DNA from: Synechococcus sp. RCC307
Lineage (GTDB): Bacteria; Cyanobacteriota; Cyanobacteriia; PCC-6307; Cyanobiaceae
Direction of reading: 5' to 3'
Assembly: GCA_000063525.1 (NCBI GenBank)
Contig: CT978603.1
Span: 367,105 to 431,104, forward strand
Length of the DNA: 64,000 bases
A program made the position numbers and the translations under genes. This document shows, one piece after another, positions 18,434-24,979 of the stretch (position 1 is the stretch's first letter; each line of letters starts with the position of its first letter). The notes beneath the pieces are model-generated. The model was not told where the DNA came from and did not search any database. It worked only from the letters and a program-made list of their open reading frames with translations.

Positions 18434-19732
18434 TTGGTCTTGCTGCAGACACTGATTCGCTACGCCCTGGTGGGCGGCGGTGCTGCAGCGATTCATCTGC
18501 TGCTGCTCCTGCTGCTGCCCCGCCTGGGGGCGCCATTGCCCCTGGCCAATGTGGCGGGCTATCTCACCGCATTGCTGTGGGGCTATGTCCTGCATGCCGT
18601 GCTGACGTTTCGCCGGCAAACCTCAGGGGAATTGTTTCCGCGCCGTTGGTTGCTGCTGCAGCTGGTGATCAACCTCAGCCTGAGTTTGGGCCTGCCCCAG
18701 CTGATGCCGCCGTTGGCAACCCATCCCGTTGGCATTGCCCTGCTGGTGTTCACGCCAACGGCTGTGAATGCTTTGGTGTGGTGGCTGGCGGCCCATCAGG
18801 TGCAGCGGCTACGCCGCGGCGATGGGCTAGCGACGTCGGCCCTGCAGTTCCATGCCGATGACCTCGGCCTTTGCGCAGCGGTCAATGCCTCGATCTTGGC
18901 GTTGGCGGACCGCGGGCTGTTGCAAGGCACCAGCGTGATGCTCAATGGCAGCGATCTGAGTGGGGCTGTGGCTGGATTGGCCCTGCGCCCCCAGCTGAAT
19001 TTGGTGTTGCATTTGGTGCTGACCGAGGGGCTGCCGATTGCTGAGCAAGAGCAGGTCCCCGATCTGCTTAACGGGAGGGGTGAGCTTCAGCTCAAGGTGC
19101 ATCGCTTGTTGTTGTTGTCGTTTTGGCCGCGGTCATGGGATTGGCCTCAATTGCGCAGGCAACGCCATCAATTGCGTCTGGAAGTGGATGCGCAGATCGA
19201 TCGCTTTTGTTCGCTTTGGCCTGATCGCCCCCTGCAAGTCGATGGCCATCAGCATGTGCACCTGATGCCGGTCGTGTGGCGGCAGCTGATGGCGTCCCGT
19301 CCCCAGCACCCTTTGGCTTGGGTTCGCACGGTGCATGAACCGTTGCCAGTGGGACTGCCTCTTGGGGAGTGGTGGAGCGTGTTGCGGAGTGCTGGCTGGT
19401 TGAAATGGCTGCTGTTGCAGTCCCTCAGTGAGCTGCAGCGCCCTGATTTGGCGGCACGCGGCATTGCCACCAACCAATGGTTTGCCGGGGTGCTGTGCAC
19501 TGGGCGCATGGGTGATCGCGCCCTGCAGGCCTCACTTCGCAGCCTGCGGGCTTGTTTGTTGGGCCAGGAACATCAGCACGCGTTGGTCTTGCTGCATCCC
19601 TCTGAACCGCTCCAGAGCGACCGGGAGCTTGAGCGCTTTGCAGAATCGCAAGCCTTCTATCGCTCGCCTTGGCGCCAGCGTGAGGCTCAGGCCTTGCTGT
19701 CAAGAGCTGGGTGGATGTCGCGCACGAAATAG
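18434..19732 (+). CDS. GtrA flippase domain fused to YdjC/ChbG-type deacetylase
   Basis: Two-domain protein of 432 residues. Residues 1-125 are a four-helix GtrA-like domain (RYALVGGGAAAIHLLLLLLL ... LANVAGYLTALLWGYVLH ... FTPTAVNALVWWL); GtrA proteins are thought to flip polyprenyl-phosphate sugars. Residues 135-425 are a YdjC/ChbG-like carbohydrate deacetylase with HADDLG (140-145), His193 in VLHLVLTEG and DGHQHVHLMP (270-279), so metal and catalytic residues are kept. The start is TTG at 18434, with a stop just upstream. It converges on a GtrB-like glycosyltransferase with a 46-base overlap. The fusion suggests that a lipid-linked N-acetylated sugar is deacetylated and flipped by one protein. 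Confidence 0.88.
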   Translation: MVLLQTLIRYALVGGGAAAIHLLLLLLLPRLGAPLPLANVAGYLTALLWGYVLHAVLTFRRQTSGELFPRRWLLLQLVINLSLSLGLPQLMPPLATHPVGIALLVFTPTAVNALVWWLAAHQVQRLRRGDGLATSALQFHADDLGLCAAVNASILALADRGLLQGTSVMLNGSDLSGAVAGLALRPQLNLVLHLVLTEGLPIAEQEQVPDLLNGRGELQLKVHRLLLLSFWPRSWDWPQLRRQRHQLRLEVDAQIDRFCSLWPDRPLQVDGHQHVHLMPVVWRQLMASRPQHPLAWVRTVHEPLPVGLPLGEWWSVLRSAGWLKWLLLQSLSELQRPDLAARGIATNQWFAGVLCTGRMGDRALQASLRSLRACLLGQEHQHALVLLHPSEPLQSDRELERFAESQAFYRSPWRQREAQALLSRAGWMSRTK

Positions 19733-20643
19733 GCCGGGCGACGTTTGCTTTCCATGTAGATGCGCCCGACGTATTCCCCGAGGATGCCAATGCCGATCAG
19801 TTGCACCCCGCCGAGGAACAAGATCGCCACCACCAGCGTCGTCCAACCGGGCACGTCGATGCCAAAGACCAAGGTGATCGTGAGTCTGTAGAAGGCGTAG
19901 ATCAGGCTCAGCAACGAAATCACCAAGCCCAGCAAGGTCCACACCTTCAAGGGCAAGACGGAAAAGCTGAAGATGCCATCGAGGGCATAGAGCCAGAGTC
20001 GGCGTGGGTTCCAAGCCGAGGTTCCGCTGCTGCGCGGTGGCCTGAGGTAGGCGATGTTGACGCTGCGGAAGCCAGTCCAGGGGTACAGCCCTTTGGAGAA
20101 ACGATCGTTCTCCCGAAGCTCCGTGAGGGCTTGCACCACGGGAGCGCTCAACAACCGGTAGTCGCCGGCGCCATCGGTGAGCTCAATGGAGTCGACCATG
20201 CGGTTGAACAGCCTGTAAAAGCCGCTCGCACTCAGGATCTTGAGCCGTGATTCTTGATCGCGCTCATCGCGAACAGCCGTCACCATTTCGGCGCCAGCGT
20301 GCCAATGCTGCACCATCTCAGCGATCAGCTCTGGTGGGTGCTGCAGATCGGAATCGATTTGGATCACCGCTCCGCAGCGGCCAACGGCTTGATCCAAGCC
20401 CGCCAACATGGCGGCCTCTTTGCCGAAATTGCGGGTGAGTTCCACCAGCGTGATCGGGGCTTGTGGTTGAGCCTCCATCCACTGACGGATGGCACCGGTG
20501 GTGTGATCGCATGAGCCATCGTCGATCAGCAGGAGACGATCAACGGATGGCTGCGCCAGCACGGCTTCGATGAATGTGATGATGCCGGCTTCTTCGTTGA
20601 AACAGCAGGCAATGGCCCACAGCTGGTTGTTGGTGGTGTTCAT
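19687..20643 (-). CDS. GtrB/ArnC-like polyprenyl-phosphate glycosyltransferase (GT2)
   Basis: Inner-membrane GT2 enzyme of 318 residues that should transfer a sugar from a nucleotide donor to polyprenyl phosphate on the cytoplasmic face. The GT-A domain has CCFNEE, LIDDGSCDHT, ELTRNFGKEAAM and QIDSDLQHPPE (the DxD-like metal site), then DGAGDYRLL. Two C-terminal hydrophobic helices (about residues 230-255 and 268-292) and the cytoplasmic tail GEYVGRIYMESKRRP are typical of GtrB, ArnC and DPM1-like enzymes. It overlaps the upstream DUF2079 gene as ATGA. Confidence 0.92.
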   Translation of the reverse strand: MNTTNNQLWAIACCFNEEAGIITFIEAVLAQPSVDRLLLIDDGSCDHTTGAIRQWMEAQPQAPITLVELTRNFGKEAAMLAGLDQAVGRCGAVIQIDSDLQHPPELIAEMVQHWHAGAEMVTAVRDERDQESRLKILSASGFYRLFNRMVDSIELTDGAGDYRLLSAPVVQALTELRENDRFSKGLYPWTGFRSVNIAYLRPPRSSGTSAWNPRRLWLYALDGIFSFSVLPLKVWTLLGLVISLLSLIYAFYRLTITLVFGIDVPGWTTLVVAILFLGGVQLIGIGILGEYVGRIYMESKRRPAYFVRDIHPALDSKA

Positions 20644-22316
20644 CGCTGCCGCTGGTTCAGCACCTGCTGGGCGCGTTCAAATTCTTGATGGAGGCACTGT
20701 TTGAGGTTGGCCTTGGTGCTCAGGTCACCCGTTGCCGTTGTGCTGCGGTGCTTGAGCAGGATGCCGCTTGGCCCGCAACGGGCAATCTCATAGCTGCCGC
20801 TCGCAAGCAAGTGCTGGGTCAGATTCATGCCGTGCTCCAGGGTGTTGGCTTGCCGGCGGAAGGCTGGGGCATAGGTGGCTTTAAAGCGCGGCTGCAACAC
20901 GATCCACTCGACGTCATGGGCTTGACCCTGCTCGTCGGTGTAGCGGTAGTTGAAGGGATAGCGCAGCAGCACACGCCGTTCAGCCAGCATGGGAATCAAT
21001 TGCGTTTCAGCTGAGACGCTGGCGTCTTTGGGAATGTTGCGGGTCAGGGCCCGGCTTTGGTGGCCCCGCTGCAGTTGTTGCCACGGGGAGACGTAGACCC
21101 ACGGGTTGAGGCTGTCGGGAATCAGCATCGACAGGCTGTGGTGGGGGTTGCCGATTAAGGCAAACACCAGCGATGCCACAGCGCAGCTTTGCCAGAGCCG
21201 CCGCACCCAACGCTGCTCAAACAGGGCCTGGCGTGAGCGCCACCAGATCACTGATCCAGCGAACACCCCTGGCACGAGATACAGCATGAAGCGCAGATTG
21301 ATCGAGAGGGCCGTTACCCCTTGAGCTGCCAGGGCCAAGAACAAAGGCACCGCCATCAACAACCAAGCATCGAGGCCAAGGATCGGCAGGAACCCCAGTG
21401 GCAACCAAAGGGCAACGAGTAGCTGCAGCGTTGGCCCCAAAGGGGTGAGCAGTTCTTGCACAACGCGTTGGGGCTGTAGGGCCATGGCCTGCAGCAGATC
21501 AAGGGTGGAGCCCTTGCCACCTTGATCACTCAAGAAATGGCCGAACCTGGCGCTCAGCAGCCGATCGGAGACCTCAGTGCCAAAAAGGGGTTGAACCGTG
21601 TTGGTGATCAGAACAACCGCCGCGGTGGCATACAGGCAAAGCCCCACTCCAGCCAAGCGCCAGCGGGGCTGGCGCAGCACCATCCAAAGGCCCAAGCTGA
21701 AGGCCAGCAGGCCCACGTCTTCGCGCACCAAGGGCAGCAACAGAGCGGCCGTTCCATAGAGCCAGCGATTGCTGCGCCGAATCCCCAGCAGCAGGCTGAA
21801 CACCAGCACCGGCACGGCGCAAAGGTCGTGGAAGTTCTCCAAGCTGGGACCAATCACTGTGCCGCTAGCGAAGTAGCTCAGGGCGATCCAGCAGGCGATG
21901 CGTTCATCGAGATCGCAGCGGGCCAGTTCATAGAGCACCAGGCCGCCAGCGCTGATCAGGCCGATCTGAACGATGGGCAAGCTCCAGGGACCCAGTAGGG
22001 CCACCAGCGGCACCCACAGCAGCAACAGCGGTGTGAAGTGTTGGCCGAGGTGCAGATAGCCCAGGGTTGGCAGGGCTGTTTTATCCAGCAGCACCGGTGA
22101 TGACAGCTCTGAAGCGAGCGTGCTCTCAAAGGGCCGGCCGCCTAAGGCACTCCAGATCTCCTGCAAAAACAGCCCCTGATCAAAGGTGGCCGTGAGCGTG
22201 TAGATCCGCCAGAACTGCAGAGCCAGGGCAAGGGCTGTGAACAGACCTGCCCCAAGCAGCAAACGTTGCCGCGGCGAGATGGGCCGCGGCGTGAATTCAA
22301 TGGGCGGGTTGCTCAT
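20640..22316 (-). CDS. DUF2079 polytopic membrane protein (predicted GT-C-like)
   Basis: Integral membrane protein of about 558 residues with some ten hydrophobic helices and a C-terminal soluble part of about 150 residues. The segment TATFDQGLFLQEIWSALGG, followed by LHLGQHFTPLLLLWVPL, matches the DUF2079 pattern; the Asp in FDQG sits where GT-C glycosyltransferases have a catalytic acid. It is translationally coupled to the GtrB-like gene. In an Arn-like scheme it would be the final transferase using the lipid-linked sugar; that role is inferred. The ATG at 22316 is preferred; one five codons earlier (22331) overlaps the sulP stop more. Confidence 0.82.
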   Translation of the reverse strand: MSNPPIEFTPRPISPRQRLLLGAGLFTALALALQFWRIYTLTATFDQGLFLQEIWSALGGRPFESTLASELSSPVLLDKTALPTLGYLHLGQHFTPLLLLWVPLVALLGPWSLPIVQIGLISAGGLVLYELARCDLDERIACWIALSYFASGTVIGPSLENFHDLCAVPVLVFSLLLGIRRSNRWLYGTAALLLPLVREDVGLLAFSLGLWMVLRQPRWRLAGVGLCLYATAAVVLITNTVQPLFGTEVSDRLLSARFGHFLSDQGGKGSTLDLLQAMALQPQRVVQELLTPLGPTLQLLVALWLPLGFLPILGLDAWLLMAVPLFLALAAQGVTALSINLRFMLYLVPGVFAGSVIWWRSRQALFEQRWVRRLWQSCAVASLVFALIGNPHHSLSMLIPDSLNPWVYVSPWQQLQRGHQSRALTRNIPKDASVSAETQLIPMLAERRVLLRYPFNYRYTDEQGQAHDVEWIVLQPRFKATYAPAFRRQANTLEHGMNLTQHLLASGSYEIARCGPSGILLKHRSTTATGDLSTKANLKQCLHQEFERAQQVLNQRQR

Positions 22317-23874
22317 CACCGATGCGCTCAAACAAGTCGAGGCTTTCCTCGTTGAGGCCTTCCACCTCCACTTGGGAGCCGCCCTTGCGCAGTTTGCGGA
22401 TCAACTGATTGAGGGCGCCCACGCCGCTTTGATCCCAGATGTGGGCATTCGACATGTCGATGGTGATCTTGGCGGGGTGCTCGTGCACATCAAATCCCTG
22501 CAAGAAATAGATCTTGCTGACAAAGAACAGCTGCCCCCTCACCACATAGCGGCGGGCATCGGGGCCCATCTCTTCCACATCAACGCGGATCACCTTGGCC
22601 ACCTTGCGGCTGAACAAGATGGCGGCCAGCGCCACACCGGCCAACACACCCAAGGCCAGGTTGTGGGGGGTGGTGAGCATGGTGACGGCGAAGGTCATCA
22701 GCATCACCGAGGTGTCGCTTACAGGGATGCGGGCCAAGCGGCGCAGGCCTGCCATATCGGCTGTGCTGATGGCGATGCTGATCATGACGGCCACCAAGGC
22801 CGCCATCGGGATTTGCTCGAGCCAGGGCCGAGCCAACAGGATCATCGCCAGCAAGCTGACGCCTGAGAAGAAGGTCGAGAGGCGGGTGCGGCCGCCGTTG
22901 TCGATGTTCATCACCGACTGACCCACCAGAGCGCAGCCCGCCATGCCTCCAAAGAACGAGGACACGATGTTGGCGATGCCTTGCCCTCGGGCTTCGGTGT
23001 TCTTGTTCGAGTTGCTGTCGGTTTTGTCGTCGAGGATGTCTTGGGTGAGGAAGGTTTCCATCAAGCCCACCAAGGAAATGGCTAGGGCTGTGGGCAACAC
23101 GATCCCCAATGTTTCGAAATTGAACGGCACGCGGCCATCAGCTAATGCGCCAAAGGGGATACCAAAGCTGGGCAGGCCCAAGGGCAGCTCACCAAGGCTG
23201 CGCACCGTTGGGATATCAAAGCCAAACAGGATGCTGATCAGCGTCAGCACCACGATCGCCACCAGCTGCGAGGGGACCACGCGGGTGAGGCGCGGTAGGC
23301 CGTAGATGATCACGAGCCCCAACACCACCAAGCCCCAAATGATTGGCAGCTGAGCGCCATGGGGCAGCAGGTCATGGGCATGGCCGGCCGCTTCGGTTTC
23401 GCCGAAGTGCAGGTTGATGCCGAGTTGCGGGAACTGGGCCTGCAGGATCAATAGGGCCAGTGCATTCACAAAGCCGCTCAGCACCCCCTGGGGCACAAAG
23501 CGCATTTGATAGGCCAGGCGCAGATAGCCCCAGAGGATCTGCAAAACACCTGTGAGGATGCCGGCCACCAGCAGATAGCTGAGACCCAGTCCTTCGCCGC
23601 GGGCGTTGCCGGTGGCCACCAGCCCAGTCATCAGCAGGGCTGTGGAGCCTGTGGCGGAGGTGATCATCGCCATGCGGCCGCCCACCACGGCGATGGTGAG
23701 CGACAGGCAGAAGGCACCAAAGAGCCCCACCTGCGGATCCACCCCCGCAATGCCCGAGAAAGCAATGGCTTCCGGGATCATGGCGAAAGCCACCACCAAG
23801 CCCGAGAGCAGGTCGCGCTGGGGGTTTCCCAGCCACTGATCAGCCAGGCTGCTGGGCGTTTTGCTCACAGGCAT
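22297..23874 (-). CDS. SulP family anion transporter with STAS domain
   Basis: Twelve-to-fourteen-helix SLC26/SulP transporter of 525 residues. The membrane part starts [20 protein letters not shown] and has the family's conserved [10 protein letters not shown] region; the cytoplasmic STAS domain fills the last 110 residues ([20 protein letters not shown]). Members carry sulfate, bicarbonate (BicA) or dicarboxylates; the N-terminal segment is not obviously BicA, so substrate is left open. ATG at 23874 ([14 protein letters not shown]) is preferred over ATG 23940, which would overlap the pyrC start. The 3' end overlaps the DUF2079 gene slightly, implying cotranscription. Confidence 0.9.
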
Positions 23875-23938
23875 CGGTGAAGAGCGGCTGCGACCGTAGG
23901 GCACAGCTGCTTTAAATAAAGGCAGTGCACTGCAGCTC

Positions 23939-24979
23939 ATGACTCCGGCTCCCGATCAGCTGGTGCTGCGCAGGCCTGATGACTGGCATGTGCATTTGCG
24001 TGATGACGTGATGCTCGAGCAGGTGCTGCCGGCCACGGCGCGTCAATTTGCGCGCGCGATTGTGATGCCCAACCTGCGGCCGCCGGTGACCACCGTGGAT
24101 GCGGCGATCGCTTACCGCCAGCGCATTGAGGCGGCATTGCCTGATGGGATGGCCTTCACCCCATTGATGACGGCCTATCTCACCGATGACATCAGCCCTG
24201 ATGAGCTGGAGCGCGGTCATCGGGAGGGTGTGTTCACAGCCGCCAAGCTCTATCCAGCCAATGCCACCACCAATTCAGCGGCGGGGGTGAGTGATCTGGC
24301 CTGCATCACAGCGGTTTTGGAGCGGATGCAGGCCATTGATATGCCCCTGTTGATTCACGGTGAGGTCACCGATCCCGACATCGACATCTTTGATCGGGAG
24401 GCGGTCTTTATTGAGCGGCATCTGATCCCGCTGCGCCGTCAGTTCCCGCAGCTGCGCGTGGTGTTTGAGCACATCACCACCGAGCAGGCCGCCCAATTTG
24501 TGGTTGATGGCGACCCATTGATGGCGGCAACCATCACGCCCCACCATTTGCATATCAACCGCAACGCCATGTTCCAAGGCGGTTTGCGTAGCGATTTCTA
24601 TTGCTTGCCAGTGGCCAAGCGGGAGCGCCATCGCTTGGCGTTGCGCCAAGCGGCTACCAGCGGTGATCCCTCGTTTTTCTTGGGCACGGACTCAGCGCCC
24701 CATCCGCGCGCCGGGAAGGAAAGCAGCTGTGGGTGCGCTGGCATCTACAACGCGCCCTATGCGCTGGAGAGCTATCTGGCGGTGTTTGAAGCCGAAGGCG
24801 CGCTGCAGCATTTCGAGGCCTTTGCCAGTGAAAACGGCCCGCGCTTCTACAAGTTGCCTCTCAATGAGGACACCATCACGCTTAAGCGCACAGCACAACT
24901 GGTGCCGGCTCAACTGGAGGGGCAGGGCCTGGTGCCCTTCCATGCCAGTGAGGTGTTGGATTGGCGTTTGGCCGATTAA
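23939..24979 (+). CDS. pyrC: Dihydroorotase
   Basis: Cyclises carbamoyl-aspartate to dihydroorotate in pyrimidine synthesis. 346 residues, the length of the class II (E. coli PyrC-like) enzymes. Metal ligands are visible in [10 protein letters not shown], in [13 protein letters not shown] (the carbamylated Lys), in LIHGEVTD, in VFEHITT and in [15 protein letters not shown]. It is divergent from the sulP gene with about 64 bases between starts. Its stop overlaps the convergent phospholipase-D gene by three bases. Confidence 0.96.

Follow-up and report, generated by a model that had tools for sequence, protein, structure and literature searches.

The GtrA-YdjC fusion and its neighbouring genes

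The 64,000-nucleotide stretch of the Synechococcus sp. RCC307 genome analyzed here (the window) contains a gene whose product joins a GtrA-type membrane domain to a YdjC-type deacetylase domain in a single chain of 432 amino acids (18434..19732, forward strand, TTG start). Both domains, which the initial annotation had placed in one protein, are recovered above their Pfam cut-offs within one uninterrupted frame: GtrA_DPMS_TM (PF04138) at residues 9-82 (E 1.4e-10, 41.8 bits vs a cut-off of 26.1) and YdjC (PF04794) at residues 137-424 (E 8.4e-39, 134.5 bits vs 29.7). The GtrA domain (residues 1-125, 18434..18808) shows four helices in the structural model (2-30, 35-62, 70-90, and 98-130), whereas the YdjC domain, which also has structural matches, occupies 18842..19705. 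In the latter, the HADDLG motif (residues 140-145, 18851..18868) is aligned to NADDFG of ChbG, H193 in LHLxLTEG (19010..19012) aligns with the histidine of ChbG HFVLTLG, and the DGHQHVH motif (residues 270-276, 19241..19261) is aligned to ChbG DSHHHVH. The first and last of these motifs had been described as intact, and their key residues are indeed conserved, with H140, D142, D143, H193, D270, H272, and H276 invariant across 55 aligned homologues.

The AlphaFold2 (AF2) model of the fusion (predicted local distance difference test, pLDDT, 94.2; predicted template modeling score, pTM, 0.89) displays a continuous helix at residues 98-130, which leads from the fourth transmembrane helix (TM4) of GtrA towards the YdjC domain. 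A fold search with this model, the results of which were taken up by matches to the YdjC half, retrieved ChbG (7vi8) at Z 22.5 and CmCBDA with bound Mn (8jqe) at Z 20.8; ChbG 7vi8 is also the best solved homologue by sequence (E 2.4e-7). The metal and catalytic residues align with those of ChbG. With an intact active site and the modeled fold of metal-dependent N-acetyl-sugar deacetylases, the domain is predicted to be catalytically active. The mean number of Lys and Arg residues per sequence is 2.4 at the N-terminus, 0.35 in loop 1, 4.1 in loop 2, 0.4 in loop 3, and 3.6 after TM4; by the positive-inside rule, these charges point to an N-in/C-in topology of GtrA and thus to a cytoplasmic YdjC domain, which supports its placement on the side where the logic of the Arn pathway would need it. 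The N-terminal half belongs to the GtrA family by its profile match, four transmembrane helices, and N-in/C-in charge pattern, and the C-terminal half to the YdjC/ChbG family by its profile, fold, and metal and catalytic residues. Comparison with a homologue of 93% identity yields an overall dN/dS of 0.15 (0.05 for GtrA and 0.18 for YdjC), indicating that purifying selection acts on both halves.

The partner genes lie on the opposite strand, with DUF2079 upstream and GT2 downstream in their pair, so that GT2 converges with the fusion. The GT2 gene (19687..20643, reverse strand) encodes a predicted polyprenyl-phosphate glycosyltransferase (GT) of 318 amino acids that is PgfS/GtrB/ArnC-like (Pfam GT2, 2.2e-23), and its 3' end overlaps that of the fusion gene by 46 bp (19687..19732). 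The DUF2079 gene (20640..22331, reverse strand; Pfam, 2.6e-162) encodes a membrane protein of 563 amino acids, a candidate GT-C transferase; its stop overlaps the GT2 start in an ATGA (20640..20643, reverse strand), which couples the two genes as initially annotated. By sequence, the GT2 groups with the polyprenyl-phosphate glycosyltransferases GtrB, ArnC, and PgfS: the NCBIfam profiles of PgfS (6e-73) and ArnC (3e-36) both match it below their cut-offs, and the solved GtrB sll0501 (5ekp) matches it at 2.5e-81. The ArnC equivalog NF007986 gives 124.9 bits against a cut-off of 529, and the enzyme is best described as a relative of ArnC, not as ArnC itself.

The gene order across the locus is a 147-aa open reading frame (ORF, reverse), the fusion (forward), GT2 (reverse), DUF2079 (reverse), a SulP transporter gene (22297..23940, reverse), and pyrC (23939..24979, forward; the gene name is our own reading). 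The SulP gene and the annotated start of the DUF2079 gene, which lie on the same strand, have 35 bp in common (22297-22331), and the ATG at 22316 is the likelier candidate for the DUF2079 start.

Distribution of the fusion and its pairing with GT2

Full-length copies of the fusion, counted as matches spanning both domains, occur in 71 of 300 genomes of the same family, and a partial or single-domain copy is present in 5 further ones. The concern that the fusion might be confined to a single genome is thereby refuted, and an assembly artefact or chance is ruled out by these 71 genomes together with the overall dN/dS. No fusion was found outside the family among 386 genomes of the phylum; among the matches listed, those from outside covered YdjC only. 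A contig scan reaching close relatives only returned nothing beyond one near-identical metagenome-assembled genome with the fusion, and phage and plasmid records contained no fusion, only partial YdjC matches, for which reason a mobile or phage origin was rejected. In the phylogenetic tree, the YdjC halves of the fusions form one clade (99/99), apart from HpnK, ChbG, and a third group, which is consistent with one fusion event.

The association with GT2 is strikingly regular. A GT2 orthologue (E<1e-110, at least 57% identity) was detected in 72 genomes, all 72 of which also carry a complete or partial fusion, and it is present in 69 of the 71 genomes with the full fusion, one exception being a contig end. 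Sixty neighbourhoods were fetched, 58 with the full fusion and 57 with sequence beyond it; the orthologous GT2 is convergent and next to or near the fusion in 56 of the 57 (a short insertion separates the two in L089), and a different GT2 (31% identity) occupies the same place in the remaining locus, L088. The flanks of the pair differ, comprising heme oxygenase, icd, glycan genes, and others, and the linkage thus exceeds regional synteny, with the reservation that related genomes do share flanks. The fusion is therefore conserved in marine picocyanobacteria and almost always paired with GT2, the two forming a conserved unit. Of the co-occurrence initially expected, the part concerning GT2 is almost perfect, whereas DUF2079 is adjacent in few genera. 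The pairing suggests an Arn-like route to free-amino sugars on the cell envelope.

Two other roles of the YdjC half can be weighed on the same data. A HpnK-type deacetylase serving a glucosaminyl hopanoid would accord with the best NCBIfam match of the fusion, HpnK (TIGR03473, 1.3e-29), and with the stand-alone YdjC of other cyanobacteria, which is HpnK. However, the score of 103.3 bits falls below the curated cut-off of 232.6, the clade of the fusion is distinct from HpnK, and hopene cyclase was found in 0 of 40 GtrA-carrying genomes tested (G000 and 39 others) but in 7 of 10 other genomes, those 7 having stand-alone HpnK. Since the carriers tested are without hopene cyclase, the fusion is not regarded as HpnK, and the hopanoid role, which retains next to no probability, was rejected. 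A catabolic, ChbG-like chito-oligosaccharide deacetylase fused to a membrane anchor, with GT2 unrelated to it, would agree with ChbG 7vi8 as the best solved homologue; this is very improbable in view of the polyprenyl-phosphate GT2 that strictly co-occurs with the fusion and adjoins it, the absence of chitin-use genes beside the fusion in the loci examined, the separation of the clade from ChbG, and the strong purifying selection on GtrA, which does not drift like a plain anchor.

Independent support for the link between GT2 and YdjC comes from f31, a distant family of the same phylum, in which an unfused YdjC gene is divergent to an ArnC/PgfS-like GT2 gene in 22 of 22 fetched loci (L163, L164, and L165-L184), a fraction that may be biased as the loci were drawn from top hits. 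An ArnT-like gene lies beside GT2 in three of them (L163, L171, and L175). A protein of ~590 amino acids, weakly similar to the PLD-like ORF of the window, is often encoded on the other side in these loci. The loci of the stand-alone HpnK in other cyanobacteria contain typical hopanoid genes, named from a reading of their sequences. HpnK stands directly beside an EamA-type transporter in L155:2205-3875, L158:6634-8339, and L159:3669-6579, the last of which additionally has a GT21 glycosyltransferase; these neighbours are possibly an unfused deacetylase-flippase pair in hopanoid modification. On a plasmid of Azospirillum ramasamyi (L185:3955-5846), two same-strand genes, one for a drug/metabolite transporter and one for a ChbG/HpnK-family deacetylase, share 4 bp.

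DUF2079 and other candidate GT-C transferases

A fold search with the AF2 model of DUF2079 (pLDDT 88.9, pTM 0.89) revealed GT-C enzymes far above all other matches. The closest full-length structural match is ArnT (5f15), with 413 residues aligned at Z 19.3; Pmt4 (317 residues, Z 19.4), STT3, and PglB were also retrieved, and a conserved D51 follows directly after TM1. The model thus assigns a GT-C fold to DUF2079, with glycosyl transfer from a polyprenyl-phosphate sugar as its putative activity. Pfam may already count DUF2079 among the families of its GT-C clan.

The GT-C candidates near the fusion-GT2 pair vary by lineage. DUF2079 is adjacent to or near the pair in the genus of the window and in genus g10 (8 fetched loci and the window), and a divergent DUF2079 lies near it in L088, a third lineage. 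In g45, one or two genes for ArnT-like proteins (5ezm, E 1.4e-21) immediately precede the fusion, with gaps of 7 and 4 bp in L034; a PIG-V-like protein and DUF2079 occur near the fusion in G052; and in the locus L088/L134, a protein is encoded whose similarity to PIG-V is weak and falls short of the Pfam cut-off. Among 80 high-quality genomes, DUF2079 is present in 48 of 49 carriers (including G131, which has GtrA without YdjC) vs 11 of 31 non-carriers, counts that are not phylogenetically independent; most carriers encode it away from the pair. The sole carrier devoid of it, G081 of g45, has an ArnT-like gene. A clean swap of DUF2079 for ArnT was considered and then softened, as further GT-C proteins are encoded in many of the genomes that have DUF2079. 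Within g10, a close DUF2079 is found in 5 of 5 fusion carriers tested, whereas 4 of 4 non-carriers have none or only a divergent one.

Besides the DUF2079 of this locus, the genome of the window encodes another one as well as three PMT_2 proteins. A dense GT-C locus recurs in marine Synechococcus/Prochlorococcus-type genomes (L125:1811-11140, L128:6375-13823, and L132:4299-10227), where DUF2079 proteins in two sizes, PMT_2, and a membrane protein of unassigned family accompany a GT2-GtrA protein.

A probable lipid-linked amino-sugar route and its precedents

The reading that we consider probable is an Arn/Nax-like, lipid-linked amino-sugar pathway, two steps of which are joined in one chain. 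The GT2 would transfer a sugar, probably an N-acetylhexosamine (HexNAc), from a nucleotide sugar to polyprenyl phosphate on the cytoplasmic side; the YdjC metal site, which the helix extending GtrA TM4 would keep just beneath the membrane, would then strip the N-acetyl group; GtrA would carry the resulting polyprenyl-phosphate-hexosamine across the membrane; and a GT-C enzyme, here most likely the adjacent DUF2079, would move the amino sugar to an outer envelope glycan. Of the four Arn-like steps that the initial annotation had assigned to GT2, YdjC, GtrA, and DUF2079, the parts, the topology, and the GT-C fold have held, whereas the adjacent GT-C is variable.

Several observations weigh against this pathway or its parts. 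GtrB, the closest solved GT2, is a UDP-glucose enzyme, and a HexNAc donor is thus not certain for the GT2. The YdjC clade of the fusion is not placed with any biochemically tested deacetylase, and G131 has cleanly lost YdjC, its GtrA of 132 amino acids staying next to GT2, which implies that deacetylation is dispensable there. GtrA proteins are putative flippases of debated role; flipping by the family is itself unproven, the evidence on Rv3789 being conflicting (PMC7389260). No GT-C gene adjoins the pair in ~45 of 58 loci; G180, G192, G203, and G233 have no DUF2079 of the ~550-aa type, only a shorter one; and with DUF2079 of limited adjacency and located elsewhere in most carriers, the GT-C serving the pair is unproven.

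The lipid-linked route may accordingly operate with a partner GT-C other than the adjacent DUF2079, which would share the locus and serve another glycan, and we regard this as a real possibility, short of an even chance. It is favoured by the few genera in which DUF2079 adjoins the pair, the separate marine Synechococcus/Prochlorococcus locus in which several GT-C genes accompany one for a GT2-GtrA protein, the carriers devoid of the ~550-aa type, and the additional PMT_2 and DUF2079 proteins of the window's own genome. However, DUF2079 is coupled to GT2 through the ATGA, has a GT-C fold, and in g10 separates carriers, which have a close copy, from non-carriers, which have none or a divergent one.

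The initial annotation had also proposed that the fusion lets only deacetylated lipid pass. A strict gate, in which the fusion GtrA would flip solely lipid passed on by its own YdjC, fits a single chain whose confident model has an unbroken helix through TM4 and the linker (98-130), and a fusion of single origin that has been retained. It is nevertheless undercut by G131, with GtrA and GT2 in the absence of YdjC, and by G183 (L143:3867-6879), where a closely similar GtrA from the subfamily of the fusion stands alone and is followed on the same strand by a GT2 and by a protein of 452 amino acids that clusters with the weakly PIG-V-like protein, apparently as a classic three-part system without YdjC. 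The fusion may merely increase local concentration, and the strict gate is distinctly unlikely. His21 and His54 of the fusion GtrA, considered as determinants for deacetylated lipid, were dropped, as the stand-alone GtrA of G183 has both. A broader proposal, which we consider rather doubtful, is that the fusion couples deacetylase to flippase, with deacetylation licensing or channelling the lipid-linked sugar into translocation, and that DUF2079 proteins are GT-C amino-sugar transferases adding a positively charged sugar to the otherwise phosphate-free surface glycans of marine picocyanobacteria.

The probable Arn/Nax-like pathway shares its step order with ArnC-ArnD-ArnE/F-ArnT. The comparison with Arn made at the outset stands insofar as the GT2 is related to ArnC, DUF2079 has the ArnT fold, and g45 has ArnT-like genes; it falls short at the ArnC equivalog cut-off, which the GT2 misses. 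ArnD has a NodB/CE4 fold and ArnE/F are of the EamA/SMR type, whereas here the deacetylase is YdjC, the flippase candidate is GtrA, and the sugar need not be 4-amino-4-deoxy-L-arabinose (Ara4N). No ArnD-type NodB/CE4 deformylase was found at the locus, to which the search was confined. Analogously, HpnI-HpnK places a GT before a YdjC-family deacetylase on lipid-linked N-acetylglucosamine; it differs in that the carriers tested are without the hopanoid pathway. A precedent absent from the initial annotation is the NaxD pathway of Francisella/Acinetobacter (FlmF2, NaxD, and FlmK), in which NaxD is a YdjC-type deacetylase and FlmK an ArnT-like transferase. It likewise employs a GT2 and a YdjC deacetylase before GT-C transfer, and the same gene set (GT2, YdjC, and a GT-C-fold protein, adjacent) is present in the window, but here the deacetylase is fused to GtrA and the candidate GT-C is DUF2079. 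NaxD acts on undecaprenyl-phosphate-N-acetylgalactosamine (PMC10927774), and FlmF2 is potentially ArnC-like (PMC8149597). GT2, GtrA, and GT-C parts are also combined in GtrA-GtrB-GtrC and GtcA-CsbB-YfhO (PMC7389260), a parts list to which the present locus adds a deacetylase, fused to GtrA. YdjC in the place of ArnD is already known from NaxD, whereas the fusion, the cyanobacterial system, and the role of DUF2079 look new within the literature searched: in open-access literature, incompletely covered, no paper was found on YdjC together with GtrA, and none mentioning DUF2079. Lipid A of Synechococcus WH8102 and CC9311 is phosphate-free, with minor glucosamine in the lipopolysaccharide (PMC4515613); if this is common to carriers, a lipid A phosphate, the acceptor in Arn, is improbable as the acceptor here.

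Should the proposed pathway be true, one chain would perform two steps that Arn splits between proteins, and DUF2079, an uncharacterized membrane family, would gain a testable role. G131 without YdjC, g45 with ArnT, and G183 with a stand-alone GtrA offer natural comparisons for the choice of lipid by the GtrA family. Abundant marine Synechococcus/Prochlorococcus relatives, whose surface sugars matter in contact with phages and grazers, would further be predicted to expose a free-amino sugar.

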